Below are positions 2 to 36,190 of a stretch of DNA of 36,993 nucleotides, piece by piece. The notes under the pieces are model-generated. The model did not search any database. It saw only the letters and a list, made by a program, of their open reading frames with translations, and was not told the DNA's origin. Location: the IMG/VR virus record IMGVR_UViG_3300017593_001555, positions 1 to 36,993 of that record; one strand, 5' to 3'. Every line of letters begins with the position of its first letter. The first letter of the stretch is position 1. The stretch comes from a virus. The translations under genes were made by a program, and so were the position numbers.

Positions 2-328
2 GTTGAGATAGCATTTGCAGGTGGGACACCAACAATTGACATTGGCAAGTGCACCTTGGACGACCCTTCGGTTGACCTGACATATAGCAACCTCGATGAC
101 GATTATTATCTTGATAATGGAGATGTGACGGAGGGGACACCTGGATACTACTCGCCTACAGTGACGACGGCATCTCCTTGGGCGGCAGCCCTTGATGATA
201 ACGACATAAGTGCGTTGATTGTCAAGGGTGCGGATACGGATATGCCTGCGATTGTTGCGACGCTATCAGCTAGTTTGACTGCTGGAAGGGCTCGGTTGTA
301 TATGCTGGTGAGTAGGATTGGAGTGTAA
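2..328 (+). CDS. Truncated virion-type protein (C-terminal part)
   Basis: The frame is open from the left edge, so the true start lies outside the window and about 108 C-terminal residues are visible. The segment is rich in Asp, Gly and Thr, has no Cys-rich or catalytic motif, and ends in a hydrophobic strand-like stretch (ARLYMLVSRIGV). It sits directly upstream of a head-completion-type gene, a position where phages often place the capsid or a capsid decoration protein. That role is inferred from position only; I do not recognise the family. Its TAA stop abuts the first copy of the dispersed GTCAA palindrome. Confidence 0.6.
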   Translation, partial: VEIAFAGGTPTIDIGKCTLDDPSVDLTYSNLDDDYYLDNGDVTEGTPGYYSPTVTTASPWAAALDDNDISALIVKGADTDMPAIVATLSASLTAGRARLYMLVSRIGV

Positions 329-347
329 ATGTCAAAATTTGACATTT
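327..347 (+). repeat. Dispersed palindrome, site 1
   Basis: The core GTCAAAATTTGAC (331-343) extends to perfect 10-base arms around one central base and is followed by TTCTGG. It fills the gap between the TAA of the upstream gene and the ribosome site of the next. It also creates a 10-codon frame (329-361) whose TGA overlaps the next ATG. Confidence 0.9.
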
Positions 348-360
348 CTGGTGATGTGTG

Positions 361-987
361 ATGAACCTACAACAGCTTATAGATGAAGTGATTGTTGTGC
401 TGGACGATGACAGTGACGAAATCGTGTCTCGTATTCCTGACTGGATAAACGAGGCAATTGCGACTGCGGTTGAGCGGGCCGAAGTCCCTGGGTTTGGAGT
501 CCTCAAGAGTGTTGACACTGTGGTTGGGCAGGCCTATACGAGCCTGCCCTCGCAGTGCAGCCGTCTGCTTTACGTAGGTGATGGCGATGATGAGCTCACG
601 GTAGTGACACTCGAGGAGTTGCTGGAGCGGTATCCAGGGATGGATGAGGAAGGCGATGTTGAGGCAGTAGCTGTCGATGGAGCAACGCTGTATTATCAGC
701 CCATTCCTGCAGAAGTGCAGGTGCTAACCGTGCTGTATAGGCGAAAGCCAACCACGTTAGTGGAGCCTGACAATGTCCCCGAGGGGATACCCGAGATGCT
801 GCACCGAAAGGTGATTGTGCAGGGTGCTGCAGCAATAGGCTTCGGCCTCATCGAGGATGGTGTTGAAGAGGGGAAGAAAGTCAATACAACTGCAGCAATG
901 CTGCTCTATGAGCGGGGAATACACGAGCTGCAGGCTTGGGTTGAGCGACGGCGAGTCCATAGACCTAGGTCTATTTGGAGGTATTGA
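361..987 (+). CDS. Putative head-completion / head-tail adaptor protein
   Basis: A 208-residue protein. An acidic helical N-terminus (LIDEVIVVLDDDSDEIVSR) is followed by a segment reading like podovirus gp4-type adaptors: a YTSLP strand, an SRLLYV strand, then VAVDGATLYYQPIP and a LTVLYRR strand. Such adaptors bind under the portal and prepare the head for tail attachment. The C-terminus is basic. I chose ATG 361, with GGTGAT five bases upstream; GTG 358 is an in-frame alternative. Its stop overlaps the next start (TGATG). The family call rests on pattern recognition, and another head-tail joining family is possible. Confidence 0.55.
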   Translation: MNLQQLIDEVIVVLDDDSDEIVSRIPDWINEAIATAVERAEVPGFGVLKSVDTVVGQAYTSLPSQCSRLLYVGDGDDELTVVTLEELLERYPGMDEEGDVEAVAVDGATLYYQPIPAEVQVLTVLYRRKPTTLVEPDNVPEGIPEMLHRKVIVQGAAAIGFGLIEDGVEEGKKVNTTAAMLLYERGIHELQAWVERRRVHRPRSIWRY

Positions 988-1874: not shown

Positions 1875-1883
1875 GAGGAAGTT

Positions 1884-2986: not shown

Positions 2987-2996
2987 GAGGTATGTT

Positions 2997-3497: not shown

Positions 3498-3510
3498 TGG
3501 AGGAGAAGGC

Positions 3511-5058
3511 TTGGCAATTACCTGGAACCCAGACGACAAGAGTAATATTAATCTTTCTGACGACAAGCTAACAGCTTGGGGTGTAACTTTTGCTAGTGGG
3601 ACTGTTCGTGCTACTGAAAAACGCTCCTCTGGAAAGTGGTATTGGGAGATACAGTATAGCCACGGCTCAGATGCCTATACCTACTTTGGAATAGCAACAG
3701 GCACGCATGACATCACAAAGTGGATAGGCTCTACTAGTGACAGCTACAGCTTCCGTTTTGATGATGGTGGTGGAACACAGAAGTGGCATGACAATGTTAG
3801 TGAGAATTATGGTTCTCCCCTTGCTGATGGCGACATTGTCATGGTTGCCCTTGACCTCAACAATGGTAAGATATGGTGGGGCAAGAACGGAACGTGGTTT
3901 GAGAGTGGAGACCCAGCAGCGGGGACCAATCCAGCGTATACAAATGTCCTTGGGGAATTCTTTCCTGCAGCCTCTTTTTATCATAAAACTACCAAGCAGA
4001 CGGCCAAGTTTCACTCGCAGAGTCTTGCTTACTCGCCTCCTTCAGGCTTCCAACCACTGGAGGGCGGGGAAGTCGCTACACATATTATTTACTTTAGTGA
4101 AGAGGCTGGGGCCTCTGACTCGTATGATACAACAATGGGCTATACTAAGGCTATTGAGGAAGAGGCTGCTGTCTCAGACACATACGATGTTCCAGCCCCT
4201 GTCTATATGACTTTTGCTGAGGCTGCAACTGTATCTGAGCGTTACGACTTTCCAAGCCCTATATACACAGAGGTCACTGAAGCGTCTTCGGTAGAGGATG
4301 CCTACACACCGTTTGCCTTGACAGCGGTTGTGGAGGAAGAGGCTGCTGGCTTTGATGAGTATGCCACAAATCTGAGATTTACCACAGGCGAGGACCAGGG
4401 ACTTGTCCAGGACCATTGGGAATTTACTGTTGCACGGAAGGGCTCACCTGTTAGTAGCTATATTACACAGGTTGGCAGCTCTCCGACTGTTGATGTTACG
4501 AAGGCTCCCATTGTTGGAGATGCTACTGTAGGTGTTGCTGCTGATGTGACGGGGCTTGGCGGAGCCGTCCTGTTGGGGGGCGTCGAGGTATCTTGTGAAG
4601 CAACAACTTCGCAGGTCACTGTGGCACAGGGCATTGCATCTGCAGTGCTTGGAGTGGAGGCCCTGGGTGCTGGCTTTGCAGAAGCATCCACGGAAGTGGA
4701 TGTAGATGCTACTGGCTGCGTGAGCACGCTTGGCAGTGCTATCGCGGAATTGCTGTTAAGCATAAGTGGCGAAGCCAGTGCGGAGATTAGAGGGCAAGGC
4801 GATGCGAGCATCGTCCCTCACATCAGTGCTGCTGGTCGCAGCTCTGCTGTGGCTGAAGGCCATGCTGATGTAATCCTTGGGCTTTCAGCCCTGGGAGTGG
4901 TTGGCAAGCTTGCTTGTGGTGAGTGCACCCTGCAGCTTGCTGCGGAGGGAAGCGGAGCTCCAGTGCCGACAGGCGAAGCCGAGGCCAGCCTCAGGCTGTG
5001 CCTGCAGGCATTTGCCAGAACAAATATTGGAGTATGTGTGCTGAGGTATACAAGGTAA
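3511..5058 (+). CDS. SPRY-domain adhesin-like tail protein with 20-residue repeats
   Basis: 515 residues from a TTG start with GGAGGAG five bases upstream. Residues about 35-170 form a SPRY/B30.2-like beta-sandwich (GKWYWEI, YFGIA, DGDIVMVALDLNNGKIWWGKNG). Residues 196-285 hold five degenerate repeats with conserved Tyr at 205, 225, 245, 265 and 284 (SEEAGASDSYD type). Residues about 310-515 are Ala/Gly/Val/Ser-rich, weakly repetitive and likely beta. SPRY modules bind proteins or glycans, so a receptor-binding or virion-surface role is inferred. The stop codon overlaps the second copy of the dispersed palindrome. Confidence 0.6.
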   Translation: MAITWNPDDKSNINLSDDKLTAWGVTFASGTVRATEKRSSGKWYWEIQYSHGSDAYTYFGIATGTHDITKWIGSTSDSYSFRFDDGGGTQKWHDNVSENYGSPLADGDIVMVALDLNNGKIWWGKNGTWFESGDPAAGTNPAYTNVLGEFFPAASFYHKTTKQTAKFHSQSLAYSPPSGFQPLEGGEVATHIIYFSEEAGASDSYDTTMGYTKAIEEEAAVSDTYDVPAPVYMTFAEAATVSERYDFPSPIYTEVTEASSVEDAYTPFALTAVVEEEAAGFDEYATNLRFTTGEDQGLVQDHWEFTVARKGSPVSSYITQVGSSPTVDVTKAPIVGDATVGVAADVTGLGGAVLLGGVEVSCEATTSQVTVAQGIASAVLGVEALGAGFAEASTEVDVDATGCVSTLGSAIAELLLSISGEASAEIRGQGDASIVPHISAAGRSSAVAEGHADVILGLSALGVVGKLACGECTLQLAAEGSGAPVPTGEAEASLRLCLQAFARTNIGVCVLRYTR

Positions 5059-5078
5059 AATGTCAAATTTTAACATTT
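5058..5078 (+). repeat. Dispersed palindrome, site 2
   Basis: The core is GTCAAATTTTAAC (5062-5074), one change from the GTCAA-N3-TTGAC consensus, followed by TTCT on the plus strand. Here the element supplies the start codon and first seven codons of the next gene, and it begins at the last base of the previous stop. Confidence 0.8.
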
Positions 5079-5569
5079 CTTTAAATGTCGAGGCCGAAGG
5101 CCATGTGGAGTGCTGGGACAGGCTGTGCCTGTCTATGAGCCTACGGCGACTGGCTGTTAGCCAGTATGGCAACTTCAATTTCGATGGCCTTGTGGAGATG
5201 AACGGAGTTTATCTCGCCTTCGGCGAGGACGGCATATACGTCCTTGGGGGCAATGACGACGATGGGCAGCCTATACAAGCCCTGCTTGAGTTTATGACAG
5301 ATATGGGGTCTGAAAGGCAGAAGAGGTTGCGGAGCTGCTATCTTGGCTGCGAAGCCGATGGCAATCTGCGATTGGTGTTGCAGAACGACGAGGGGAACGT
5401 GCGTGAATACATGCTTGCATGCAAGCCCACACAGCACTCCGTCAGGACTGCTGTGGGCAGAAGCGGCCGAGGACGATATTGGACATTCACAGTTGAAAAC
5501 GTGGATGGCTGCTATTTCTGTGTTGACACGGTTGATGCTGTGGTAACGGTGATGCGGAGGAAGCCGTGA
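5060..5569 (+). CDS. Phage virion protein, uncharacterised family
   Basis: 169 residues. The central and C-terminal pattern (NFDGLVEMNGVYLAFGEDGI, YVLGG, ALLEFMTDMGSERQKRL, GRSGRGRYWTF, VENVDGCYF) resembles a conserved phage protein found among tail or baseplate genes, but its role is unknown to me. The N-terminus MSNFNIS is encoded by the dispersed palindrome, so the gene start may have been captured by insertion of that element. AAGG lies five bases before the ATG. The protein ends in basic residues, and its last codons carry the SD and GTG start of the next gene. Confidence 0.5.
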   Translation: MSNFNISLNVEAEGHVECWDRLCLSMSLRRLAVSQYGNFNFDGLVEMNGVYLAFGEDGIYVLGGNDDDGQPIQALLEFMTDMGSERQKRLRSCYLGCEADGNLRLVLQNDEGNVREYMLACKPTQHSVRTAVGRSGRGRYWTFTVENVDGCYFCVDTVDAVVTVMRRKP

Positions 5570-9853: not shown

Positions 9854-10047
9854 GCAAGCAAATACGAGAGATGTATAGGAAGGCTGGGCTGACGCCACCC
9901 AAAGGGAAGGGCATCCACACTGTTATGGCACACAGGTGTGTTATAGAATATCTGAAGAAGGGACTTTCCAAGAGTGAAGCGTGGAAACGCTGTGTTGGCG
10001 CTCTTGGCAAGAAGGCCATCAGGCCTTCTCATAGAAGGACAGTATAA
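9850..10047 (+). CDS. Small basic protein
   Basis: 65 residues, with Lys/Arg throughout (PPKGKGIHT, LKKGLSKSEAWKRC, KKAIRPSHRR) and an internal amphipathic helix. ATG 9850 overlaps the previous stop (ATGA), with AAGGGGG upstream. It pairs with the next small basic gene. Proteins like these in phage operons may bind DNA or pack inside the virion, but nothing here fixes a role. Its TAA abuts the third dispersed palindrome. Confidence 0.5.
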   Translation: MSKQIREMYRKAGLTPPKGKGIHTVMAHRCVIEYLKKGLSKSEAWKRCVGALGKKAIRPSHRRTV

Positions 10048-10066
10048 ATGTCAATTTTTGACATTT
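10046..10066 (+). repeat. Dispersed palindrome, site 3
   Basis: The core GTCAATTTTTGAC (10050-10062) starts at the TAA of the upstream gene and runs with TTCTT into the GGAGGTG ribosome site of the next gene. It therefore forms the whole intergenic spacer. Confidence 0.9.
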
Positions 10067-10079
10067 CTTGGAGGTGAAA

Positions 10080-16342: not shown

Positions 16343-16420
16343 TTACCCCCTCACTACTAGGAAGGTTAGTATTAGCAGTGCTAACGCAATTAACAAAGCT
16401 ATAACGTCAAATTTTGACAT
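16343..16420 (-). CDS. 25-aa membrane micropeptide
   Basis: The ATG lies inside dispersed palindrome site 4, so the peptide starts MSKFDV; it continues with about 17 uninterrupted hydrophobic residues (IALLIALALLILTFLVV) and ends RG. GGGAG lies a few bases upstream of the start. The frame exactly fills the gap between the end of the HTH paralog (overlap 22 bases) and the start of the next gene (4 bases). The composition strongly suggests a single membrane helix. Role unknown; a holin-like or membrane-anchoring regulator is conceivable. Confidence 0.5.
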   Translation of the reverse strand: MSKFDVIALLIALALLILTFLVVRG

Positions 16421-16938
16421 TTCTCCCACCTCCCAGTGTCTCTGTTGTAGCGGTAGCCTTTTTCGCGGAGGTATCGCCCAAGAGTAGTGTTGCTCAGCTT
16501 ACAGGCCAGGCTAAACTGGTGCATAGTGCAGAACGTGCGAAGCACGCTTTCAATACCCCCGTAGCGAGCGAAGGCCTCGCATGCAAGGCCGTGCGGAGCA
16601 TTGTTGTAGAGCCTTGACTTTGTTGTGATGCCGAGCTCTTGCAGCCCCTTGCGGATAGCAAATGATGTAAATCCCCAGAACTTCTCCATCCAGGTCATAC
16701 CCTTCTCCTGATACTGCTCTCGTAGCATTGTTCTCGCAAGCCTCTTATCACATCTGTGTCTTATCATGATGTTCCAGAGGAACGTCCCTTTATAGTGTCC
16801 ACACGCTGCTGATGCAATAACTGCCTTCAGCTTCTCATAGAGAGGCCCTCCAAGTGAGTCCACGAGAGTGTATAGCTCTTGTATCTCCTTGTTGGAGAGC
16901 CACACCACAAGTTTATTCCCTCGTCTGTCCCTCGGCAT
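16399..16938 (-). CDS. HTH-like protein, longer paralog
   Basis: 179 residues. REQYQEKGMTWMEKFWGFTS followed by FAIRKGLQELGI fits a helix-turn-helix, and LSNTTLGRYLREKGYRYN a second one. APHGL(A)CEAFARYGGIE is shared with the downstream paralog. The N-terminus (MPRDRRGNKLVVWLSNKEIQ) is basic and unique to this copy. The start ATG follows GGAGGTAGAT. The final codons are contributed by the dispersed palindrome. Likely DNA-binding; possibly a regulator or a relative of the DNA-binding half of a homing-type protein, but no nuclease motif is visible. Confidence 0.5.
   Translation of the reverse strand: MPRDRRGNKLVVWLSNKEIQELYTLVDSLGGPLYEKLKAVIASAACGHYKGTFLWNIMIRHRCDKRLARTMLREQYQEKGMTWMEKFWGFTSFAIRKGLQELGITTKSRLYNNAPHGLACEAFARYGGIESVLRTFCTMHQFSLACKLSNTTLGRYLREKGYRYNRDTGRWEKCQNLTL
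16402..16422 (+). repeat. Dispersed palindrome, site 4
   Basis: The core GTCAAATTTTGAC is at 16406-16418. The TTCT extension is on the plus strand while the flanking genes run minus, making this the only copy whose orientation opposes local transcription. It codes for the last residues of the HTH paralog and the start of the micropeptide. Confidence 0.9.
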
Positions 16939-16947: not shown

Positions 16948-17328
16948 CTACCAGATATACTCTCTTGCTATATTGACCAGGGCAAGAAACACATCGTCCT
17001 TCACCCGCTCCCTTGGGTCCAATTCCTCGTAAGGAACAAGGTCTGGATGAGCCTTCTTCTCTGGGTCGTAAACCTTGCCATACTGCCAGCCCATCTCCTT
17101 ATACCTCCTCACCCAAGATTCATGAGCAGCCTTGGGGTCAAGGAACTTCTTTCGTCCTGCAGCAAGGTCGTCAATTAACTTTATGAGCTGCAGCTTGAAC
17201 TCCTCTTCACGTTCTCCCCACGGCTTTGGGACCACAGGACAGCCTAGTAGTATTGCATGCAGCCTTGCTGCCTCATAGACAAAGATTGTCCTGCGGACTG
17301 TGCTACTTGTCAAGGTATCTACCTTCAT
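16948..17328 (-). CDS. RyR-domain protein
   Basis: 126 residues. Residues about 67-126 match the RyR domain found in ryanodine receptors and common in phages: AAHESWVRRYKEMGWQYGKV, then DPEKKAHPDLVPYEELDPRERVKDD. The function in phages is not established; in some proteins the domain has been proposed to bind small ligands. Residues 1-60 are helical. GGGGAGGACAAT precedes the ATG, and the gene overlaps its upstream neighbour by 26 bases. Placement in the replication array suggests a DNA-metabolism or host-takeover role. Confidence 0.8.
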   Translation of the reverse strand: MKVDTLTSSTVRRTIFVYEAARLHAILLGCPVVPKPWGEREEEFKLQLIKLIDDLAAGRKKFLDPKAAHESWVRRYKEMGWQYGKVYDPEKKAHPDLVPYEELDPRERVKDDVFLALVNIAREYIW

Positions 17329-18705: not shown

Positions 18706-21017
18706 TACCGTCTCCAGTCAATGTCGAGTTCTTTCATGTCGCCCCAATACTCTCCGACTTTAAAGTCCACATCGATTATCATCGTCTCGTTGTTGACTGG
18801 GATTTCTCTTATCATATGCTCTCGCATCAGGCAAACGCATCTGTCGACCTTCTCAGGCTCGGCTGCTACATAGATTGCGTCATGGAGCTGGATGCAAACA
18901 TCGAACTCGTCACCGTGGGCTCGGTAGAAGCTCTCTGCAGATATGTTGAGCAGGTCTCCGACAGACGACTGCGGAATGTAGGCATACGCCTCTCGGAAGA
19001 GAGCATCACCCCATCTTCCGAGGAAGCGATGTCTTCTGCCGAAGAGGTTGACAAGTGTTCTATCTTGGCGGAGCTGCTGCTGTATTCGCATGTGCCAGCT
19101 TTTCAAGAGATGGTTCTTCTCGTAGTAGCGGTCGAGCAAGGCTCGGGCCTGCGAGAGCGAGACGCCAAGTCGCTCAGCGACGGTTGCAGGGCCTGCAGCA
19201 TAGTTGCAAGCATGACGAAGTGTCTTCCCTATGCGTCGCTGTGCAGGTGTGACTTCGTCCACAGGTATTTCATACATGATGCTCGCTGTGTAGCGATGGA
19301 CATCGTATTTCTCCTTCCTTTGGGAAGGAGACATCCCGAAGCTATCCTTGAATAGCTTCATCAGGACGGTGTCAAGACATAGATAGGCTACCACAACGGC
19401 TTCCGCCTGCACATAGTCCGCCCCGATAAATACCTTGCCCTTCGGAGCTCGATAGAGAATGCGAGCATCCTCAGGGATGTTCTGTAGATTGCCACTGCCA
19501 TACGGCAGGATGATGCTCTTGCTAGAACTCCAGCGGCCACCAAACGATGTTCCTGCTATGTTGTAGCAGGTATGCACCTTCCCCTCAGGGCTGACTGTAA
19601 TATCCACAAAGGACGATTTCTTTTTGGCAACAGCCCGTCGCTCAAGGATAAGTCCAGGGACTGGATGCACCTTCGCAAGCCTTTTCAAGGCCTGCTCGTC
19701 GGTTGTCACCTTACGCTCTTGCTCTTTGGACTTGCGTCGTTTGAACTGCAACGGCAGGCCAAGGTCGACATAGAGCAGGCGTTTTACCTGCTCAGGGGAG
19801 TTGAAGTTAATCTTGCGGCCGCAAGCAGCAACAAGCTCCTCATCAAGCTCTTCGAGCCTCTTGTTGCACTCTTTGAGGAGTGCGTCCCGCTTTTCAAGGT
19901 CAATGCCTATGCCCTGCAACTGCATATAAATGGCGAGCTCGAGCTGCTTCATCTCCACATCGAGGATGTGCTGCTGACCAGCATTCCGAACTTCCCGTTC
20001 CAGTATCGGGACAAGAGCAATTGTGGCCGCTGCATCCTGGGCATTGTAGAGACCCATGTCTCTGCTGGAATAGGGCTTCCAGACAGGGACATCCAAACAG
20101 ATGCTTGCAAGATAGCCGAGGTCTCTCGGCAGCTCAGGCCACACAACGTGAGCTGCAAGCAGCGTGTCCATATACATTTTTCTAGGAAAAATGTGGTAGC
20201 GATGCCACAGCAAAGCTGCGTCATAAACTGCGTTGTGCATCACAATCGGGCATTGCTCGCACAGGCGAGCTACTGCCGACCAGATAGCAATTTCATCCCT
20301 TTCTGGCCACTTTGGATACTTGCCATCCAGTAACTGGATGGAGATAGCGAAGCTTGGGTCGGCTGATAAGCCAATCCAAGAGACGTGAGTCTTGGTGGCC
20401 TCAAGGTCAAGAGCCACAGGGCCCTCGGCACTGTCGCAGAAATCTATGAACTCCTGCAGGGTCGGGTGAGTCTGAAAGACCCTTCGGTCTTTTGGGATTT
20501 GCGGAAACTTGCTGTGATGGAGTGCTTTACGCATGTCCAAGATGAACGTCGTTGCTAGCTCCCACTCGTAGTTTACTTTCTGTGGATGCCAGGTAGCAAG
20601 GACTTTCTGCCCCCGCACGAGCGTGGACTCCATTATATAGCCTCTATAAGAGGCTATTCCCGTCTTCCCCGTCAAGGCCCACAGGGCTGTTCGCCCAAGG
20701 GCAACAACAATGTTGGGACGATACTGCTCAATCTCCTCCTTAAGGAGGTTGACCCACTCAACAAGTTGAGGCTTCGGCTTGGTGCAAGACGCATCGTAGA
20801 AATAGTATCTTATCTCATTTGCGGGCGGCCTCTCACGAGCCACATTTGCTATGAGGCATTCTGCTCGGTTTATCCCAGCATATGACAGCAGGGAATTGAG
20901 TGTCTTCCCTGCTCGCCCTACAAAAGGACGCCCTGTCATGTCCTCTTCCTTCCCAGGGGCCTCGCCGACCAGCATTATATTAGCGGTTGGTGGACCTTCA
21001 GTAGGGACAAAGGTCAT
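18705..21017 (-). CDS. UDG-like domain fused to family A DNA polymerase with proofreading exonuclease
   Basis: 770 residues. Residues 1-165 form a type-4 uracil-DNA-glycosylase-like domain (GEAPGKEED 18-26, PFVGRAGKTLN 31-41, HPQ 144-146) lacking the usual iron-sulfur cysteines. Residues 180-345 are a DEDDy 3'-5' exonuclease with Asp204/Glu206, Asp266, Tyr324 and Asp328 intact. Residues 350-770 are the polymerase: motif A ADYVQAEA (Asp534), motif B RRIGKTLRHACNYAAG (Lys598, His602, Tyr606), motif C QLHDAIYV (Asp713). His602 occupies the position of E. coli Pol I Phe762, and Ala714 replaces the Glu of HDE. There is no 5' nuclease domain. AAGGAGGTG precedes the ATG, which overlaps the methyltransferase stop (ATGA). 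UDG-PolA fusions are known in some phages, for example SPO1. Confidence 0.9.
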   Translation of the reverse strand: MTFVPTEGPPTANIMLVGEAPGKEEDMTGRPFVGRAGKTLNSLLSYAGINRAECLIANVARERPPANEIRYYFYDASCTKPKPQLVEWVNLLKEEIEQYRPNIVVALGRTALWALTGKTGIASYRGYIMESTLVRGQKVLATWHPQKVNYEWELATTFILDMRKALHHSKFPQIPKDRRVFQTHPTLQEFIDFCDSAEGPVALDLEATKTHVSWIGLSADPSFAISIQLLDGKYPKWPERDEIAIWSAVARLCEQCPIVMHNAVYDAALLWHRYHIFPRKMYMDTLLAAHVVWPELPRDLGYLASICLDVPVWKPYSSRDMGLYNAQDAAATIALVPILEREVRNAGQQHILDVEMKQLELAIYMQLQGIGIDLEKRDALLKECNKRLEELDEELVAACGRKINFNSPEQVKRLLYVDLGLPLQFKRRKSKEQERKVTTDEQALKRLAKVHPVPGLILERRAVAKKKSSFVDITVSPEGKVHTCYNIAGTSFGGRWSSSKSIILPYGSGNLQNIPEDARILYRAPKGKVFIGADYVQAEAVVVAYLCLDTVLMKLFKDSFGMSPSQRKEKYDVHRYTASIMYEIPVDEVTPAQRRIGKTLRHACNYAAGPATVAERLGVSLSQARALLDRYYEKNHLLKSWHMRIQQQLRQDRTLVNLFGRRHRFLGRWGDALFREAYAYIPQSSVGDLLNISAESFYRAHGDEFDVCIQLHDAIYVAAEPEKVDRCVCLMREHMIREIPVNNETMIIDVDFKVGEYWGDMKELDIDWRR

Positions 21018-22306
21018 GGTTTCACCTCCTTTGACAGGGCTTCAAGAGCAGCTGCATATGCAGCTTTATCTATCTCACAGCCGATAGGCTGCATTTTCAA
21101 TGATAGGGCTGCCCGAAACGTGCTGGCAGAGCCAGCAAATGGGTCGCAGACGACGCTGTTGGGCATAACTGTCCGCTGGATAAGCTCACGAAGGAGCTCG
21201 ACAGGCTTCTCTGTTGGATGAATGCGTTTGCTCGGCTCAACAGGTGGGACCTGTATCCAGTCGGGGCGTCCCTGCAGGACGAGCTCGCTATCTGCTCTGC
21301 GGCAGTAGAGCAGCATGTCATAGCAGCTAGCTGGCCAGCACTTCGGTGCATTGCACTGGCCTACGGCCCGCTTGACCCATATAACAGGGCGAACGTGCGG
21401 GAGCCAGCCTACAGCCTCAAAGATTGTCCTCACAACATGAAAGTGCTCGGGGCACACAAATATCCAGGCATGAGCCGCGCTCTTGCAGAAGCGGAAGCTT
21501 TCACGTGCGAGCACGGTGTAGAGCTCAAGAGCCTTGCTAGGTTCATCTTCAAACTTGTAGCCAGCTGTGCTAACACCTCCCGTCTCACGGCCCACACTCG
21601 TGGCGATTTCATCTATGTTAATACCGTAAGGCGGGTCCGTTAGGAGCAGGTCAACGGACCTGTCTGGCACGGTCGGCATCCACTTACGTGCATCCGCAAG
21701 ATGTAAATCCCATTTGTTGGTAGCTTGGCGAGCAAGCTCGGCCCGTTGCAAGGCAACGCTGATGCTCTTCGCTGCTCGCTTGATAGCGGATTTCTTCTTG
21801 AGCTTCGCAAGCTCAGGGAACGTTTCCACAGCTTCCGCTATTTGGATATGTTCAATAACCTTGGCTCGGCTAACGCCGAGGCTTTCGGCAGTCTTGTCAA
21901 GCGTCCAGCCACCCTCACGACCGCTTTGTGACTCGCCGTAAAGCCTTTGCTTTATGCTATGGAGGTCCCGTATGGCAAGGGCCTCTTCGGCGGGCGTGAG
22001 GTTCTCACGTTGCAGGTTCTCTTCGAGCTCGATTTCCCGCAGGACCAGCGGGTCGACTGCATCTATATAAATGCATCGCACTTTGCGGCGGCCCATCTTA
22101 CACGCCGCTAAGCGGCGACCGCCCGCGACGAGTCGCATGTCTCGGGTCACAATGACTGGAACGAACTGGCCGTATCGCTCGATAGAGCGGAGGAGCTTCT
22201 TTAGTTTCTGCTGGTCAACTTCCTTCCGATACCTCGGAAGACTTTCGTCAAGGACGATTTCATCAGGGTCGACCTCAAAGATTTCCTTCTCGTTGAAGTA
22301 AGACAT
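21014..22306 (-). CDS. ParB-like / DNA methyltransferase fusion
   Basis: 430 residues. Residues 10-110 form a ParB/sulfiredoxin-fold domain (VAGGRRLAACK 60-70, ELEENLQRENLTPAEEA 93-109), followed by an HTH (LDKTAESLGVSRAKVIEHIQ). Residues 198-425 are an amino-methyltransferase of beta order: DPPY at 224-227, HPTEKP 363-368, and the AdoMet motif DPFAGSAST 388-396. The enzyme should methylate adenine N6 or cytosine N4, using the ParB part for site recognition. Known phage ParB-MTases protect DNA or alter expression. GGAGG of the SD is joined directly to dispersed palindrome site 5, so this protein is a candidate ligand of those sites (inference). Confidence 0.88.
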   Translation of the reverse strand: MSYFNEKEIFEVDPDEIVLDESLPRYRKEVDQQKLKKLLRSIERYGQFVPVIVTRDMRLVAGGRRLAACKMGRRKVRCIYIDAVDPLVLREIELEENLQRENLTPAEEALAIRDLHSIKQRLYGESQSGREGGWTLDKTAESLGVSRAKVIEHIQIAEAVETFPELAKLKKKSAIKRAAKSISVALQRAELARQATNKWDLHLADARKWMPTVPDRSVDLLLTDPPYGINIDEIATSVGRETGGVSTAGYKFEDEPSKALELYTVLARESFRFCKSAAHAWIFVCPEHFHVVRTIFEAVGWLPHVRPVIWVKRAVGQCNAPKCWPASCYDMLLYCRRADSELVLQGRPDWIQVPPVEPSKRIHPTEKPVELLRELIQRTVMPNSVVCDPFAGSASTFRAALSLKMQPIGCEIDKAAYAAALEALSKEVKP

Positions 22307-22319
22307 CTTTAGCCTCCAG

Positions 22320-22340
22320 AATGGTCAAAATTTGACGTTT
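22320..22340 (-). repeat. Dispersed palindrome, site 5
   Basis: The core GTCAAAATTTGAC is at 22324-22336. On the minus strand it is followed by CATTCTGGAGG, so the extension merges with the SD of the ParB-methyltransferase gene. Its other edge touches the TAA of the upstream zinc-ribbon gene. Confidence 0.9.
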
Positions 22341-22582
22341 TAGCTGCGTCTAACAATAGATGTTACATGACCGCACTCCGTGCAGCGAAACAACTCAATT
22401 GCGATGAGCTCCTCTCGCCCAGTGTGCGACAGCACTGCAGAAACCTTTTTCAAAACGAAGACAGTCGTGAAATACGTGCTCCCGCACTCAGGGCACTCCA
22501 CACTAGGGCACTTCGACAAGTCAACCCTTACAGGCTGGCCCACAGCTTGTGGACCACTTCCACCATTACCACCTCTCTTCAT
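22340..22582 (-). CDS. Zinc-ribbon protein
   Basis: 80 residues. Two CPxC/CxxC knuckles (VECPECGS and FRCTECGHV) separated by about 30 residues with beta strands are typical of a zinc ribbon. The N-terminus is Gly-rich (MKRGGNGGSG). I chose ATG 22582 because of the strong GTAGGAGGG site; an in-frame ATG at 22618 would overlap the upstream gene more. Possible roles are nucleic-acid binding or a polymerase accessory factor. It directly precedes the ParB-methyltransferase gene. Confidence 0.6.
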   Translation of the reverse strand: MKRGGNGGSGPQAVGQPVRVDLSKCPSVECPECGSTYFTTVFVLKKVSAVLSHTGREELIAIELFRCTECGHVTSIVRRS

Positions 22583-25225: not shown

Positions 25226-25581
25226 AGGTTGATACCCACTTTTGCAAGAGCATCAACAATGGCCTGACGCTCGTCCTCGCTGAGGCCAGCCAATCTGCGT
25301 TCGAGCTCGGCCTTGCTGAGCTTAGGAGCAGCGGCCCGCTTGGCGGTCCATTCTCCGCCTTTCAAGGTTTCCCAACGACGCTCAATAGCTTCGCTAGCAT
25401 CCTCACCATCACGGCCTGCAGCAGCATCACCGAGCACCTGTGAGAGCCCATGTATCATGAGCTTCCGCTGGATGTCTGGCGAGAGCTCATCTACGTTGTA
25501 AAAGCCACTCTGCCCTGTGGAAATCACGGTAATCTCAACGCCGTTGTCCTTAGGGACTTTGTCTAACTTCTTCACACTCAT
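25222..25581 (-). CDS. Uncharacterised phage protein, paralog of the 32281 gene
   Basis: 119 residues. ITVISTGQSGFYNVDELSPD, HGLSQVLGDAAAG, and WETLKGGEWTAKR match positions in the 113-residue product at 32281-32622 (YDLNELPD, KLRDSYAG, WDALKNNEWERK). This is a recurrent phage family of unknown role. The C-terminus here is an extra helical hairpin (LSKAELERRLAGLSEDERQAI). GGAGGTAGAAGAG precedes the ATG inside the end of the ribbon-helix-helix gene. Both copies sit close to an early promoter. Confidence 0.6.
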   Translation of the reverse strand: MSVKKLDKVPKDNGVEITVISTGQSGFYNVDELSPDIQRKLMIHGLSQVLGDAAAGRDGEDASEAIERRWETLKGGEWTAKRAAAPKLSKAELERRLAGLSEDERQAIVDALAKVGINL

Positions 25582-26097: not shown

Positions 26098-26352
26098 TTA
26101 TTTCACCCGTCTGACGACAAGAGTGTAACCATCCCCCAAGGGGATGAGCTTCATCTGGCCCGCTTTCAGCGGAAGGACCATGTCCTCTCTAATGCCCAGC
26201 ACACCAAGGTGTGACATGTCACACATCCTTTTCAAGGAAATCCTTGGCTGATGGGCGATGCAGTCGCCGTGAGGCGACACAATTTTGCTGCTGAGCAGCA
26301 TGGCTGCAGAGCAGCCAGAATTGTCAATTTTTGACGTTTTGCCTGGCATCAT
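26098..26352 (-). CDS. Small protein with palindrome-encoded N-terminus
   Basis: 84 residues from tandem ATGs behind GGAGGAGCA; the start overlaps the upstream stop by four bases. Codons 5-11 (KTSKIDN) are encoded by dispersed palindrome site 6, the only copy wholly inside a coding frame downstream of the start. The rest has beta strands at the C-terminus (MKLIPLGDGYTLVVRRVK), preceded by LGVLGIREDMVLPLKAGQ, suggesting a small barrel. Translation might instead begin at a later ATG (26302), which would put the palindrome in the leader; no good SD supports that. Confidence 0.45.
   Translation of the reverse strand: MMPGKTSKIDNSGCSAAMLLSSKIVSPHGDCIAHQPRISLKRMCDMSHLGVLGIREDMVLPLKAGQMKLIPLGDGYTLVVRRVK
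26319..26339 (-). repeat. Dispersed palindrome, site 6
   Basis: The core GTCAATTTTTGAC is at 26323-26335 on the plus strand; the minus-strand reading continues AATTCTGGC. It lies within the first codons of the 84-residue gene. Confidence 0.88.
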
Positions 26353-27255: not shown

Positions 27256-27278
27256 TCATCTCACCTCCTTTCTTTCAG

Positions 27279-27299
27279 AAATGTCAAATTTTGACATTT
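27279..27299 (-). repeat. Dispersed palindrome, site 7
   Basis: The core GTCAAATTTTGAC (27283-27295) has perfect 10-base arms. On the minus strand TTCTG leads into AAAGGAGGTGAG, the SD of the gene at 27255. Its upstream edge touches the TGA of the 24-aa micropeptide. Confidence 0.92.
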
Positions 27300-27373
27300 C
27301 AGTCGTTTATCCATCTGATGATAATCCATCCTGCTAGCCATATAGCTATCAGGAAACCAAAGAATTCAATCAT
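27299..27373 (-). CDS. 24-aa membrane micropeptide
   Basis: The start ATG 27373 has AAGGAGGTCAAG directly upstream and overlaps the previous gene's end by eight bases. The peptide (MIEFFGFLIAIWLAGW, then IIIRWIND) is a hydrophobic, Trp-rich single helix with charged ends. The good SD, coupled start and fit between neighbours argue that it is real despite its size. Role unknown; candidates are a holin or pinholin-like peptide, or a membrane modulator of a host protein. Confidence 0.55.
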   Translation of the reverse strand: MIEFFGFLIAIWLAGWIIIRWIND

Positions 27374-31312: not shown

Positions 31313-31370
31313 TAGCCGTAACATGCCAATAAATCGGCCAAAATGACCGATAGCCTTGCCGATAGGCCAG

Positions 31371-31391
31371 AAACGTCAATTTTTGACATTA
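31371..31391 (-). repeat. Dispersed palindrome, site 8
   Basis: The core GTCAATTTTTGAC is at 31375-31387. The minus-strand reading continues GTTTCTGG. It starts at the TAA of the upstream gene (TAATG overlap) and lies about 60 bases upstream of the promoter at 31285-31312. Confidence 0.9.
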
Positions 31392-31733
31392 TTTCTTAGC
31401 TCCACTAAGGGTGGCCTCGATTTCTTCAGCCGATAGGCCATCAGCCTCCATCTGCTTCCGTAGCTTTGCGAGACGCAAGTCCACTGGCTTTTCAGCGCTG
31501 TCGAGTGTCCCTTTGTAGCATTTGAGGGTGGGCTTCTTCCTGACTACAACGCAGGGCACACCGTTCTTGTTCACACGCAAGTGTATGCTAATATCATCTA
31601 TACGGAGCTTCTTCAGGACCCGCCAGATTTGCATCTTCAGGGCTTCCTGCTCACCTTTGGCAGGAGCCTCTACCCAGAGGGCTTCGCCAGGCGAATAGCC
31701 ACACACTTCATCTACTATGCTGAATGCATCCAT
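31389..31733 (-). CDS. Uncharacterised protein (DGLSAEEIE family), copy 2
   Basis: 114 residues, the first gene of the minus-strand array. YSPGEALWVEAP, a helical segment, DDISIHLRVNKNGVPCVVVRKK strands and MEADGLSAEEIEATLSGA match copy 1 at 28934-29308. GGAGGCTCAGAT precedes the ATG. Its position directly under the outermost early promoter suggests immediate-early expression. Confidence 0.6.
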   Translation of the reverse strand: MDAFSIVDEVCGYSPGEALWVEAPAKGEQEALKMQIWRVLKKLRIDDISIHLRVNKNGVPCVVVRKKPTLKCYKGTLDSAEKPVDLRLAKLRKQMEADGLSAEEIEATLSGAKK

Positions 31734-31803: not shown

Positions 31804-32092
31804 ATCACCCAATAATCAATACACCGATAACATTTGGCCGTGTATGTGTATGTCAATTTTTGACCTTTCTGCCACCGTATGGCTCTGCCACCGTTAGGTG
31901 CTTGCACCAGCGTGCTGGGCTGTGCCAGCTTTTTGCTTTTTGTGTTTTTATTTATTTTTTTATATTTTTTTTTCTTTAAAAGAAAGAGCTGAGAAAAAGA
32001 AAGCTGGACAAACACATAGCGCCAGAAACGTCACAAAAATAGATAGAGAAACGGCGTCAAATTGTTATCGGTGTATCGGTGTTTGGGTGATT
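31804..32092. other. Divergent non-coding region, replication-origin candidate
   Basis: This spans the middle of a 547-base gene-free stretch (31734-32280). An inverted repeat of 29 bases matches at 25 positions: left arm from 31804 (ATCACCCAA...ACACCGATAACA), right arm on the opposite strand at about 32063-32091 with two ACACCGAT units. Between them are a 50-base T-rich run (31929-31979) flanked by an 8-base inverted repeat CCAGCTTT/AAAGCTGG (31925, 32000). Iterons beside an easily melted segment suit an origin; a regulatory region for divergent promoters is the alternative. Confidence 0.45.
31848..31868 (+). repeat. Dispersed palindrome, site 9
   Basis: The core GTCAATTTTTGAC is at 31852-31864, with CTTTCTGCC following on plus. 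It lies 11 bases inside the left arm of the origin-like inverted repeat. Confidence 0.88.
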
Positions 32093-32169
32093 TTCCAAAT
32101 GAAAATGTGTGTTTTATTGGGTGTTTGCACGCAATGGTTACTAGCGTAGCTAGTGCAATTGGTCATTGA

Positions 32170-32190
32170 AAATGTCAAATTTTGACGATT
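32170..32190 (+). repeat. Dispersed palindrome, site 10
   Basis: The core GTCAAATTTTGAC is at 32174-32186, followed by GATTCTGGCC on plus. It lies about 20 bases upstream of the -35 of the promoter at 32207. Confidence 0.9.
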
Positions 32191-32206
32191 CTGGCCGTGA
32201 AACGGC

Positions 32207-32256: not shown

Positions 32257-32280
32257 AATAAATTTCATGGAGGTGCCAAA

Positions 32281-32622
32281 GTGGCAGAGAGAAAGGATGT
32301 AAAGGTGGAAAAGAACTGGGAGGATATGACAATTGTCATATCGGGCTATGGTATTAAGCGGACATACGATTTAAATGAATTGCCAGACACTATGAAAGAC
32401 AGGTGCATGGTGTTAGGAGCTAGTAACAAGCTTAGAGACAGTTATGCTGGCAAGACGGACAAGTGGTATGAACACACAGACGCTGTTTGGGACGCATTGA
32501 AAAACAATGAATGGGAGCGTAAAGCAACGTCTAAGCTTACGAAACTGCAGGAATTAGCGGACGCTGGCGCATTTAGTGCCAAACAAATGGCATTGTTAAA
32601 GGGTTTGGGATTGATAAAATAG
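32281..32622 (+). CDS. Rightward early protein, paralog of the 25222 gene
   Basis: 113 residues from GTG 32281 behind GGAGGTGCC. ITVIS-like MTIVISGYGIKRTYDLNELPD, KLRDSYAGKTD and VWDALKNNEWERK align with the 25222-25581 product. It forms its own transcription unit between a promoter and a strong terminator, opposite in direction to the main early array. The product may therefore be an immediate-early regulator or host-takeover protein; this is inferred from the isolated unit. Codons look more AT-rich (aaaaac, aaat) than in the structural arm. Confidence 0.65.
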   Translation: MAERKDVKVEKNWEDMTIVISGYGIKRTYDLNELPDTMKDRCMVLGASNKLRDSYAGKTDKWYEHTDAVWDALKNNEWERKATSKLTKLQELADAGAFSAKQMALLKGLGLIK

Positions 32623-32688: not shown

Positions 32689-32693
32689 GCCCA

Positions 32694-32904
32694 GATGCTA
32701 CGCATCCAGATGCTCCGCATCTCAGGCGAAGCCCCCCTAAGCCCCCAAGGGCATCCCGCCTGATGATAGACATAGTCCAAAATTCTCCCTGACCAAAATT
32801 TCAACCAGCACAGCTGGCTGCTACGCAGGCAGCAAAGCTGCAGCACCACAGCTATGACGTCAAATGTTGACGTTTCTCGCGCCTGTGGTGCCAGCTATGC
32901 TGGC
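32694..32904. other. Hairpin-rich intergenic region before the terminase genes
   Basis: Part of a 349-base gene-free stretch. In order: GATGC-TAC-GCATC (32694-32706), AGATGC-TCC-GCATCT (32708-32722), TCAGGC...GCCTGA, a compound hairpin CAGCT/GCTGC...GCAGC/AGCTG (32811-32840), GCACCACAG...CTGTGGTGC (32843-32851 with 32883-32891) enclosing palindrome site 11, and GCCAGC-TAT-GCTGGC (32890-32904). Candidate functions are a packaging (pac/cos) site, an origin or structured RNA; none can be chosen from sequence alone. Confidence 0.5.
32855..32875 (+). repeat. Dispersed palindrome, site 11
   Basis: The core GTCAAATGTTGAC is at 32859-32871, followed by GTTTCTCG. Nine-base inverted repeats flank it. 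The outer bases are GAC-C and G, the only copy with a compensating pair at that position. Confidence 0.85.
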
Positions 32905-32937
32905 ATATAGCCCGATGAACATTTGTCCATTCACGCA

Positions 32938-32965
32938 TTGACTTATGCCAATAGCATGTTATGAT
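32938..32965 (+). promoter_or_regulatory. Promoter of the terminase operon
   Basis: TTGACT (32938-32943), 16-base spacer, TATGAT (32960-32965). The 20 bases at 32955-32974 match those at the 31.29 kb promoter at 17 positions (CATGTTA-N6-TATCATG). The predicted start coincides with ATG 32972, so the mRNA is probably leaderless. Confidence 0.7.
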
Positions 32966-32971
32966 GTTATC

Positions 32972-33436
32972 ATGGGACGGCCTAAGAAAAAGCTTGATGA
33001 AGAGGTCATATTGGACCTCGTAGAGCGAGGCCTTCCGCAAAAGGAAATCGCCGAGGAACTCGGTGTTAGCACACCGACGCTGGCGAAGCGGATAGCTGAC
33101 CTTCGGGAGAAGCAGGGCCTTCTGCTGAAATACCGTGCTTTGCAGAGCTTGCAACTCACCGAGCTGCAATGCAGGGTGCTGGAAGCCATAACACCAGAGA
33201 AAATCGAAGAGGCTCCGCTTCGGGACCTCGTTCTTGCGTATAAAGTTCTGAAAGACAAGGAGCAATCTATTGAAGGACTACCGTCAGATATCAAGGGTCT
33301 TGTTGGCTACTTGGTTGAGCTTGAAAAGAGCAAGCTTGACAGCGAAGACAGCACTGCTGTTATTGATGTTACTCCTGGCAATGGAGACGGGAGCGATGCC
33401 AGAGACGAGAGTCACGTTGACAAGACTATCAACTAG
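32972..33436 (+). CDS. Putative terminase small subunit (HTH protein)
   Basis: 154 residues. MGRPKKKLDEE opens the protein, and VERGLPQKEIAEELGVSTPTLAKRI is a clear helix-turn-helix, typical of terminase small subunits that recognise the packaging site. LTELQCRVLEAITPEKIEEAPLRDLVLAYKVLKDKE and IEGLPSD follow as in relatives. The C-terminus is acidic and disordered. The large subunit lies one gene downstream. The start is MGRPKK at 32972; an in-frame ATG at 32945 overlaps the promoter. No SD exists, in line with a leaderless mRNA. A regulator is the alternative reading. Confidence 0.6.
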   Translation: MGRPKKKLDEEVILDLVERGLPQKEIAEELGVSTPTLAKRIADLREKQGLLLKYRALQSLQLTELQCRVLEAITPEKIEEAPLRDLVLAYKVLKDKEQSIEGLPSDIKGLVGYLVELEKSKLDSEDSTAVIDVTPGNGDGSDARDESHVDKTIN

Positions 33437-33773: not shown

Positions 33774-35208
33774 TCCGATTGTGTTGGAACGCTTGCGTTC
33801 CTGGCAGGACAATCCGTTGAGGTTTGTGCAAGAATGCTTTAAGTGGCCGAAGGACCAGAGGCCAACATTCCAGCAAAAAGAGGCCCTTCAGGCCATAGCT
33901 TTCAGGAAGCGTGTCAGCATCCGCAGTGGTCATGGCTGTGGTAAATCAGCAATAGCTGTGTGGATAGCTTTGTGGTTCATGAGCACAAGGGCATATGCCA
34001 AAGTGGCTGTTACAGGACCAACAGGCCGACAGCTGTATGACATATTCTGGGCCGAGCTTGCAAAATGGTTCAGGCGCAGTCGCTTGCAGGATGAGTTCAT
34101 CATGCAGAAAGGAAAGTTCTTCTATAAAGCTGCACCAGAGGATTGGTGGATACGGCTGATAAGCCCACGAGTCAAGGCCACAAAGGAAGAACAGGCGGAG
34201 ACGCTTGCTGGCCTTCACGGTGACCATCTCCTCATCATCGTAGATGAAGCCAGTGGTGTGCATGACCCTGTGTTCGTTCCGCTGGAAGGGGCACTGACAA
34301 GGCCCGACAACAAAGTTTTGTTGATTGGAAATATGACAAAGTCTTCTGGATATTTCTATGACACGCATTTTCATGCTGCCATTCAGCGGAAGTGGGTGCA
34401 TTTGCATTGGAACAGTGAGAAATCGCCTTTGGTGACGAAGGAGACTGTAGAATACTTCAGGGACAAATATGGTGAGGACAGCAGCGTTTATGCTGTGCGT
34501 GTAAAGGGCGACCCTCCACACACAGATGATAAAGCCCTCATTCCGCTGGAATGGAGTCGCCAGTGTATCGGCAATGAAATTGAGGTTGCTGATGACGAAC
34601 CGCTCTACTTGAGTGTGGATATCGCCAGATATGGCGATGATGTCTCTGTGGTGATGCCTCGCAGGGGTCTCAAAGTGTATGAATGGGATGTCTTTAAAGG
34701 GATGAATACAATATCGCTTGCGGGGAACATTCTGCAGATGTATACGGAACGTGACGCCAGTGGTGTCATCCTTGATGAAATCGGAGTTGGAGCAGGCGTC
34801 GTAGACTGGCTTGAAAAGCACGGAATGGTCAACTGCTACGGGGTAAATGTGTGCTGGGCGTCTAGCGACGTCAGTCGCTATCACAGGCTACGGGATGAAC
34901 TCTGGTGGACAGTGCGAGAGAAGTGCATGCGAGGGCTCTACTCATTCCCTCCAACAGAGGAGTCAGAGACGCTGTGTGACGAATTGGCCTCGCCGAAGTA
35001 TGACTTCAACGCACAAGGCGGTATTGTTGTTGAGAGCAAGAAAAAGATGCGAGCTCGTGGCGTTGGAAGCCCGAACAGGGCTGATGCCCTTGTCCTTAGC
35101 GAATATATTAACAGCGTAGCCCACAAAGTGTGGCCCACAAAGAAGACCTACAGGTCTTCCAGGAAGTATTATGCCGTAGGCGGAGAGTGTGCATGGATGG
35201 TAGCATAA
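33760..35208 (+). CDS. Terminase large subunit (packaging ATPase-nuclease)
   Basis: 482 residues. The ATPase domain has Walker A SGHGCGKS (56-63), Walker B LLIIVDEAS (167-175) and coupling motif GNMTKSSG (190-197). The RNase H-like nuclease domain has Asp287 in SVDIARYGDD, Asp339 in VILDEIGVGAG and Asp442 in RADALVL. All key residues are present, so the enzyme should cut concatemers and pump DNA into the prohead. GGAGGTGCGGA precedes ATG 33760, overlapping the DUF5675 gene by 14 bases. No intein or insertion is seen. Confidence 0.93.
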   Translation: MRGLNPIVLERLRSWQDNPLRFVQECFKWPKDQRPTFQQKEALQAIAFRKRVSIRSGHGCGKSAIAVWIALWFMSTRAYAKVAVTGPTGRQLYDIFWAELAKWFRRSRLQDEFIMQKGKFFYKAAPEDWWIRLISPRVKATKEEQAETLAGLHGDHLLIIVDEASGVHDPVFVPLEGALTRPDNKVLLIGNMTKSSGYFYDTHFHAAIQRKWVHLHWNSEKSPLVTKETVEYFRDKYGEDSSVYAVRVKGDPPHTDDKALIPLEWSRQCIGNEIEVADDEPLYLSVDIARYGDDVSVVMPRRGLKVYEWDVFKGMNTISLAGNILQMYTERDASGVILDEIGVGAGVVDWLEKHGMVNCYGVNVCWASSDVSRYHRLRDELWWTVREKCMRGLYSFPPTEESETLCDELASPKYDFNAQGGIVVESKKKMRARGVGSPNRADALVLSEYINSVAHKVWPTKKTYRSSRKYYAVGGECAWMVA

Positions 35209-35858
35209 TTTGTGTCAGCGATTTGCATATACCTTACACGAGCCGACACTTTGTCCGCTTTGCAGATTATGCTTGTGAAGCAGATACAGTAGTCTTTGAT
35301 GGAGATGTCCTTGACTTAGTGAGATGCACTGTGAAAGATATTAAGGGCAGTTATATAGGGCGAGAGCTGGTGGGGGCAGTGAAGAAGATAGTGAAGGCAA
35401 CTGAGACGATTTTCATCCTGGGCAATCATGACATGGAGCTAAGTGAGGCTCTTTCTGTGCTTCTGGAGATGGAAATCTCTGCGTATCCATCTTACCGCTT
35501 GGGTGACATGCTCTTCATGCACGGCTGGCAATTCGACCCGCTATGCAAATATTGGAATTGGCGGTTGTTAGCGAGGATTTCGCCGTGGTTCTTTCGCCCA
35601 CCGAGTGAGTGGAAAGCAAGAAATAGGGAGAAATGGCACAGATGTGTAGGACGGATATATTCTGAGGTGTTTTCCTTTCTGGAGGAGCACAGCTGGTGTA
35701 GGTTGTTAGTTATAGGCCACACGCATTATCCTAGCTATCACGAACTGCAGACAGGGCAGCGAGTGCTGGACTGTGGTGACTGGGTAGATAGCGGTAGCTG
35801 GGGAGAGATTGTTGGTGGTGAAGTGAAAACACGACATCTGGGAGATGGGATAGGATGA
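35193..35858 (+). CDS. Calcineurin-like metallophosphoesterase
   Basis: 221 residues. Two-metal motifs are complete: SDLHI (Asp10, His12), FDGDVLDL (Asp38), GNHDME (Asn78, His79), MHGWQ (His110) and GHTHYP (His176, His178). The pattern is close to LpxH-type UDP-diacylglucosamine hydrolases and phage phosphoesterases. The substrate in phage is unknown; nucleotides, RNA ends or DNA are possible. ATG 35193 lies after GGAGAGTGTGC and overlaps the terminase by 16 bases. The stop overlaps the next ATG by four. Confidence 0.8.
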   Translation: MDGSIICVSDLHIPYTSRHFVRFADYACEADTVVFDGDVLDLVRCTVKDIKGSYIGRELVGAVKKIVKATETIFILGNHDMELSEALSVLLEMEISAYPSYRLGDMLFMHGWQFDPLCKYWNWRLLARISPWFFRPPSEWKARNREKWHRCVGRIYSEVFSFLEEHSWCRLLVIGHTHYPSYHELQTGQRVLDCGDWVDSGSWGEIVGGEVKTRHLGDGIG

Positions 35859-36169
35859 GTAGGATAGTGGCAGAGAATGAAGATTGGCGGATACGGCAGG
35901 CAGAGGGCGACAACTATGCCCTTACCACAGGTAAGGGCCACTTCACATTCTATATAAAGGGACGGAACGAGAAGCTTGTGTTCTACAATATGCTTGTATC
36001 GGCAAAAGCCGAGATGAAAGATGTAGTCTTTCTGACATTTGGAGGTTGGTTTGCATTATGGCTGACAGTGGAAGATGTAGGTTTTCTGCTGGAAAGCCTG
36101 CCAATGACAGAGGCGGAGAAGGAAGCAAGCACGGAAGTGCAAAGTTCTGGAGGGATGACTATACAGTGA
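35855..36169 (+). CDS. Hypothetical protein
   Basis: 104 residues, with beta strands around WRIRQAEGDNYALTTG, HFTFYIKG and LVFYNMLV, then a helix VGFLLESLPMTEAEKEAS and a polar tail. ATGA overlap with the phosphoesterase gene. The compact alpha/beta form has no recognisable motif; might be a small partner of the phosphoesterase. Palindrome site 12 begins at its stop. Confidence 0.45.
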   Translation: MSRIVAENEDWRIRQAEGDNYALTTGKGHFTFYIKGRNEKLVFYNMLVSAKAEMKDVVFLTFGGWFALWLTVEDVGFLLESLPMTEAEKEASTEVQSSGGMTIQ

Positions 36170-36190
36170 TAATGTCAAATTTTGACTTTT
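36170..36190 (+). repeat. Dispersed palindrome, site 12
   Basis: The core GTCAAATTTTGAC is at 36174-36186, followed by TTTTCTTGGAGG, so the extension runs straight into the SD of the next gene, as at site 3. Confidence 0.9.

Follow-up and report, generated by a model that had tools for sequence, protein, structure and literature searches.

Proteins of the ParB family and the plasmid protein KorB load onto DNA at palindromes as cytidine triphosphate (CTP) clamps and then slide (PMC12704722, PMC11790492), and a published survey has described phage-encoded fusions of ParB with a methyltransferase, giving their role as unknown, perhaps in anti-defense (PMC12704722). The DNA analyzed here, hereafter the window, is the complete 36,993-base stretch of the IMG/VR virus record IMGVR_UViG_3300017593_001555 (91.4% coding); it encodes such a ParB-methyltransferase (21014..22306, minus strand; 430 amino acids) and carries twelve dispersed palindromes of the form GTCAA-N3-TTGAC. 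Comparison of sites and proteins among related phages makes it very probable that the palindromes are parS-like landing sites of the phage's own ParB-methyltransferase, the proposed reader of these sites; the combination of this site-protein pairing with a function acting over the whole genome is likely as well. No report of sites for a ParB-methyltransferase fusion was found in the literature searched, from which most subscription journals and preprints were absent.

Palindrome classes and the helix-turn-helix of the ParB-methyltransferase

The initial annotation, made from the window sequence by itself, had listed twelve oriented palindromes at gene boundaries; all twelve are present, eleven of them as exact GTCAA-N3-TTGAC, and the site at 5058 has a single mismatch (TTAAC; GTCAAATTTTAAC) where the 93% relative G004 has an exact copy. 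Exact matches in 60 second-order Markov genomes averaged 0.05 (maximum 1); with at most one mismatch allowed, the window has 13 matches vs. 1.14 ± 0.92 in shuffled sequences, and none of 100 shuffles reached 13. The thirteenth match (15404) lies within the ligase gene, is without the flanks, and looks like a chance occurrence. The consensus, [CA]AGTNAAAAN-GTCAA-NNN-TTGAC-NTTTCT[TG][GA], includes the one-sided extension described earlier, which was confirmed with a 31-position weight matrix (PWM) made from 157 dissimilar sites on 49 contigs; the twelve window sites scored 25.8–41.9, whereas 340 kb of simulated sequence yielded scores of 11.2 or less. The twelve palindromes are confirmed as real.

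Relatives of the ParB-methyltransferase, of which 80 were retrieved, provide a natural experiment. All 1,024 half-sites were scanned in 5-3-5 geometry in intergenic sequence only, an approach that took over from a whole-sequence dyad scan swamped by coding bias. Most genomes of sufficient length that encode the canonical helix-turn-helix (HTH) had one clear winning half-site: GTCAA in the window (×10), L189 (×13), L196 (×8), and L199 (×8); CGTAA in L190 (×8) and L192 (×11); TACAC in L211 (×11); ATTAA in L208 (×10); TCCCA in L178 (×4); and TTCAA in L220 (×6), L217 (×2), and L187 (×2), a class that arises at three separate points of the protein tree. In Desulfofustis phage LS06-2018-MD01 (OP947158), an annotated sister phage, the palindrome is a different one, GCTATGTCCCAANTTGGGACATAGC, present in nine copies; no such palindrome was found, under the terms searched, in the paper on this phage (PMC10370329). 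In full contigs of relatives without GTCAA sites, AAATACACAWTGTGTATTT is dispersed in 13 copies, none of them in genes, and other dispersed palindromes take the forms TCGTAAT-N-ATTACGA, TTCAA-N3-TTGAA, and GTTCATTAAT-N-ATTAATGAAC; the sites of L194 and L209 were visible only in such full-contig scans. About two dozen loci with a degenerate or insertion-bearing HTH had no comparable repeat in the half-site scan, and some canonical-HTH loci, mostly short ones, had no winning half-site; L188, L197, L198, L200, L201, and L210 were too short for a site call. Across these genomes, the comparison shows that a dispersed, intergenic, evenly spaced 5-3-5 palindrome accompanies the canonical form of the predicted HTH, and that its sequence changes with the HTH.

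The ParB-methyltransferase has a predicted N-terminal ParB nucleoside triphosphate (NTP)-binding domain (residues ~5–100, with the motifs GGRR and ENLQR), followed by the HTH (~105–180) and the methyltransferase (~196–430). Profile matches included Spo0J (1vz0, E = 3.5e-21), ParB (7bnk, over residues 5–180), Noc (7ng0, over 3–171), and KorB (8qa8), and for the methyltransferase part DpnA (5hek, over 199–427); the Pfam family HTH_ParB reached no better than E = 0.04, in one member. The AlphaFold model (predicted local distance difference test, pLDDT, 83.2) places helices at residues 136–143 and 147–162, the latter being the recognition helix; it had Foldseek matches to CcrM (6pbd), ParB (7bnk), and Noc (7nfu), and aligned with M.BceJIV over 210 residues (Z 25.8, root-mean-square deviation 2.2). 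The catalytic motif reads TDPPYGI in the window protein and DPPY or DPIY in most relatives; by this motif and the modeled fold, the methyltransferase domain is predicted to be a beta-class, CcrM-like N6A/N4C enzyme. GGRR (Box II) and E[EA]NxxR (Box III) are kept across relatives.

The residues that vary with site class include several of the HTH. Residue 147, the first of the recognition helix in the model, is Arg or Lys in 13 of 13 independent GTCAA proteins and P, L, V, S, E, or Q in the TTCAA, CGTAA, and ATTAA proteins (Fisher p about 2e-4, by hand arithmetic and not corrected for phylogeny); among 416 alignment columns, residue 151 ranks first in its association with site class, residue 147 fourth, and residue 135 fifth. 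The earlier suggestion that the ParB-methyltransferase tags the entire genome is strongly supported by this covariation between palindrome and HTH across relatives. The only proteins present in all 18 palindrome genomes are the ParB-methyltransferase, DNA polymerase A, and an AAA ATPase, and of these three only the ParB-methyltransferase has a sequence-specific DNA-binding domain; the ligase, terminase, portal, TerS-like HTH, and C1 families are not found in all 18.

Beyond the core, an outer TCT/AGA element flanks the sites of several classes (GTCAA, CGTAA, and TTCAA). In the lineages with GTCAA and CGTAA (G083) sites, one of its sides is displaced by about 3 bp (NTTTCTK vs. NTTTTNACTK), and it is symmetric in G092, G082, and G085; this element may provide a second contact, one that does not vary with the HTH.

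Placement, spacing, and distribution of the sites

Lineage-wide, about 87% of the sites lie between genes or across a gene edge, and a typical site lies 24–37 bp upstream of a start codon; in the window, 11 of the 12 cores are intergenic, and only the core at 16406 overlaps a gene end. Distant members have sites at the same junctions, among them the position upstream of the SU10-type adaptor gene (18 of 24 loci); a second recurrent location is the neighborhood of the gene adjoining the terminase, and the motif stands 24–28 bp upstream of the ParB-methyltransferase gene in G001–G004, G054, L009, and L010 as well. Agreement of orientation with transcription is confined to the window clade. In the window, orientation agrees with the next gene in 11 of 12 cases, the exception being the 16402 site (core 16406), as originally noted; outside the window clade it is near random, with about 40 sites following and about 50 opposing gene direction. 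The flanks, again as first described, are without RNA-like covariation, since both T-G and A-C combinations are common at positions −1/+1. Mixed orientation, placement, and the absence of RNA-like covariation in the flanks point to double-stranded DNA that is read by a protein indifferent to strand.

The spacing of sites in 18 genomes, with means of 2.5–6.2 kb, is more even than expected from uniform placement (Fisher p about 8e-10) and from random choice of intergenic gaps (p about 9e-16); these figures are approximate, as some site lists used loose mismatch limits. Even spacing is strong in G089, G083, G085, G004, G013, and G009, and the effect is absent in G054, G019, G046, and G090.

When 2.9 million viral contigs were scanned for the pattern, 96 stretches matched, with several copies on many of the contigs; contigs from a broad lineage of virulent podovirus-like phages carry 3–16 copies each of the same ~31-bp site. 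When 1,464 proteins from 77 contigs were clustered, nearly all contigs fell into one connected lineage, with a terminase, a P22-type portal, and a replication block as common genes; the latter consists of a PDDEXK nuclease, the AAA ATPase, the ParB-methyltransferase, a polymerase A with a uracil-DNA-glycosylase (UDG) domain, and DUF3987. The strict 28-bp site pattern was absent from 84,980 genomes of bacteria and archaea, and a megablast search with the first 25 kb of the window against phage records returned no match. The close relatives G003 and G004 (about 91–95% polymerase identity) have sites in common with the window at several orthologous junctions, with changes in the core center and some gains and losses. 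G004 (L106/L107) also carries about 8 kb (portal, scaffold, and capsid) that would link the two ends of the window, apparently a permuted fragment from a roughly 45-kb genome. Neither an integrase (PF00589) nor a ParA-type ATPase (PF13614) was found in any of 16 contigs, some of them incomplete or fragments; a CI-like repressor was not found in these partly incomplete contigs either, HTH_3 appearing only as a weak match in the gene adjoining the terminase.

Site 1 (321..351, plus strand; core 331–343; PWM score 37.4) lies where a structural gene adjoins the SU10-type adaptor gene, followed on the same strand by site 2 (5052..5082; core 5062–5074; 31.7), which is the copy with one mismatch, site 3 (10040..10070; core 10050–10062; 40.7), which is kept in G003 and G004, and site 4 (16396..16426; core 16406–16418; 36.2), which overlaps the end of a minus-strand gene and is kept in G002, G003, and G004. 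Four sites are on the minus strand: site 5 (22316..22346; core 22324–22336; 39.1), 24 bp upstream of the ParB-methyltransferase gene, site 6 (26315..26345; core 26323–26335; 36.6), site 7 (27275..27305; core 27283–27295; 35.7), and site 8 (31367..31397; core 31375–31387; 41.9). Plus-strand sites 9 (31842..31872; core 31852–31864; 25.8), 10 (32164..32194; core 32174–32186; 38.0), and 11 (32849..32879; core 32859–32871; 32.5) occupy a divergent region, site 11 being upstream of the conserved HTH gene; site 12 (36164..36194, plus strand; core 36174–36186) scored 40.3. The AAATGTCAAAWTTTGACATTTCT of the motif holds an in-frame ATG (MS[KNI]FDIS...); an open frame begins inside the palindrome at 5060, and on the minus strand at 16418 such an ATG has a Shine-Dalgarno sequence ahead of it.

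Among other window genes, the lineage-wide DNA polymerase A (18705–21017, minus strand) combines an N-terminal uracil-DNA-glycosylase-superfamily domain (residues 6–155) with an exonuclease domain, and the product of a phage gene at 16951–17328 (minus strand) contains a RyR domain (Pfam PF02026, E = 8.8e-11). The C1 family (113–174 amino acids) has two paralogues in the window (32281–32622 and 25222–25581) and homologues in Mel-JY34, ctMlz233, and Vibrio phage VS-ABTNL-3; C1b is near sites in every genome that carries it. Dyad scans of L176, L177, and L182 found only weak repeats of other kinds; L177 (MW202489) and L182 (MF497422), where the ParB-methyltransferase has a different HTH region, contain other dispersed intergenic repeats (AAACCGNNCGGTTT-like and GAATTANNTAATTG-like), some of them near C1 genes. 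The RHH protein that had been named as a candidate binder has no counterpart among the window proteins scanned.

Alternative explanations

The sites could be dispersed, stoperator-like operators of another phage regulator, for which a C1-family protein (32281–32622) and the TerS-like HTH protein (32945–33436) are the candidates. All 11 C1b genes have a site no farther than 700 bp away, with a mean of 1.64 sites vs. 0.49 for all genes; despite this good genomic association, C1 was rejected as the binder, as its model had no PDB fold match with E ≤ 0.001 and the family is missing from two palindrome genomes (G090 and L178). The TerS-like HTH gene is near a site in 18 of 19 cases, but its recognition region is too variable among carriers of the same site and the family is not universal, nor among those common to most palindrome genomes, and it was rejected as well. 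The clustering of sites in the divergent region would suit a regulator; site orientation outside the window clade is unrelated to transcription, and integrase is missing (16 contigs). A regulator of this kind is improbable, and the analogy with mycobacteriophage stoperators or start-associated sequences drawn in the initial annotation is not supported by the wider lineage, where integrase, ParA, and CI-like repressor were not found in the contigs searched and orientation is not linked to transcription.

It is very unlikely that the palindromes are centromeres at which the ParB-methyltransferase partitions the phage genome as a plasmid. Such a role would agree with the ParB fold and with palindromic, multi-copy sites, yet the 16 contigs have neither a PF13614 ParA-type ATPase nor an integrase, the bacterial genomes searched have no copies of the strict 28-bp site, and the sites are spread genome-wide instead of being clustered; a related phage has been classified as strictly lytic (PMC10370329).

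With a methyltransferase domain in the same protein, the palindrome itself might be the methylated or restriction target sequence; of the five residues that covary best, three belong to the HTH and not to the methyltransferase domain, usual targets are far shorter and less conserved than these sites, and guarding a dozen intergenic palindromes would be an odd use of a methyltransferase, which leaves this explanation highly improbable.

An RNA hairpin at gene junctions, acting in processing, stability, or translation control, is exceedingly improbable and was rejected by the tests of flank-pair covariation and orientation: its 5-bp stem and 3-nt loop, extendable with AAAN/NTTT, and its location between stop codon and Shine-Dalgarno sequence would be suitable, but both gene-relative orientations are about equally frequent in the lineage, T-G flank pairs outnumber A-C only slightly, the core varies together with a DNA-binding HTH, and some copies are in divergent non-coding regions. 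Reading TTGAC as a sigma −35 promoter element was discarded for the aligned sites, where start codons lie about 17–25 bases downstream with a Shine-Dalgarno sequence in between and orientation is mixed, as were T7- or N4-type RNA polymerase promoters, such a polymerase not being among the annotated genes of the window.

Proposed mechanism and comparison with known systems

If the palindromes are landing sites of the ParB-methyltransferase, a dimer would bind GTCAA-N3-TTGAC with the recognition helix of each HTH, and the choice of outer bases would depend in part on residues 147 and 151. If the analogy with ParB, Noc, and KorB holds, the N-terminal domains would next bind nucleotide and thereby close a clamp, which would leave the site, diffuse along the DNA, and bring the methyltransferase across the kilobases between sites; the phage genome would be modified or coated in cis, and host DNA without sites would be spared. 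The likely benefit would be protection from restriction, possibly together with effects on transcription or on the handling of replicating DNA. Sites that are evenly spaced, lie between genes, and show no preference for orientation fit a loader that needs to cover the whole genome. We infer clamp, sliding, and cis methylation from homology and anatomy: NTP-dependent clamp loading and sliding may or may not apply, in about equal measure; cis self-methylation as the main purpose is somewhat doubtful; and the full scheme, in which an NTP-driven clamp with its methyltransferase loads at evenly spaced sites and methylation spreads in cis to mark viral DNA as self, is tentative.

As a caveat, several observations weigh against this reading. 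The C-terminal dimerization domain of ParB is missing, and the methyltransferase (196–430) is in its place; the protein is not a canonical ParB. Its Box II has GGRR in place of the common GERR, and NTP hydrolysis may be altered as a consequence; among 28 ParB-fold proteins in the published survey, 17 did not bind NTP (PMC12704722). The covariation sample amounts to about 22 proteins once near-copies are removed, and part of the covariation is inheritance, because site and protein share phage ancestry. Columns 57 and 332, outside the HTH, also rank high for site class; L211 and L178 have Arg or Lys at residue 147 yet carry other sites; the short loci L200, L201, L197, and L198 have a GTCAA-type HTH and no clear site; and the outer, partly asymmetric TCT/AGT element is not accounted for by the pairing of site and protein.

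What is new is a probable ParB/parS-type recognition that is ParA-less, fused to a methyltransferase, dispersed over virulent phage genomes, and diversified into several site specificities. The landing-site reading provides a concrete, testable DNA target for the widespread ParB-methyltransferase fusions, described in late 2025 as having no known role (PMC12704722). Six half-site classes can be read against HTH sequence across the lineage, a natural data set for the evolution of ParB HTH specificity, and even spacing is an anatomical clue to genome-wide loading. If the proposed mechanism is true, it would be a clamp loader, and not target sequence alone, that directs modification, giving mobile genomes a new means of marking themselves as self.

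The stoperators of mycobacteriophage L5 and the start-associated sequences of cluster K resemble the sites of this lineage in being many and short and in occupying small gaps between the genes of a single phage. They belong to temperate phages, are bound by the immunity repressor or tied to start codons, and keep one orientation; in contrast, the lineage described here has no orientation rule and no integrase was found in 16 contigs, and its sites are gene-proximal but face either way, unlike the start-associated sequences of cluster K. Chromosomal ParB/Spo0J with parS, and Noc with its binding sites (NBS), share the N-domain boxes, the HTH (1vz0, 7bnk, 7nfu, 7ng0), and palindromic loading sites with the phage protein, which differs in its lack of a ParA partner and of the canonical dimerization domain, in its site, and in its fused methyltransferase. 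KorB and its OB operators in plasmid RK2 are similar in that a ParB-family N-domain and HTH read a short site; the CTP clamp of KorB slides from this site, acts at distances of more than 1 kb, and silences without ParA (PMC11790492). KorB has no methyltransferase and acts with KorA at promoters, whereas the phage sites are spread at even intervals along the genome of a virulent phage, and a predicted methyltransferase forms the C-terminus of the phage protein. The window protein belongs to the class of ParB-CTPase fold and N6_N4 methyltransferase fusions described by Kaljevic et al. (2025; PMC12704722); the central HTH and the proposed cognate, dispersed sites identified here go beyond the description of that class.

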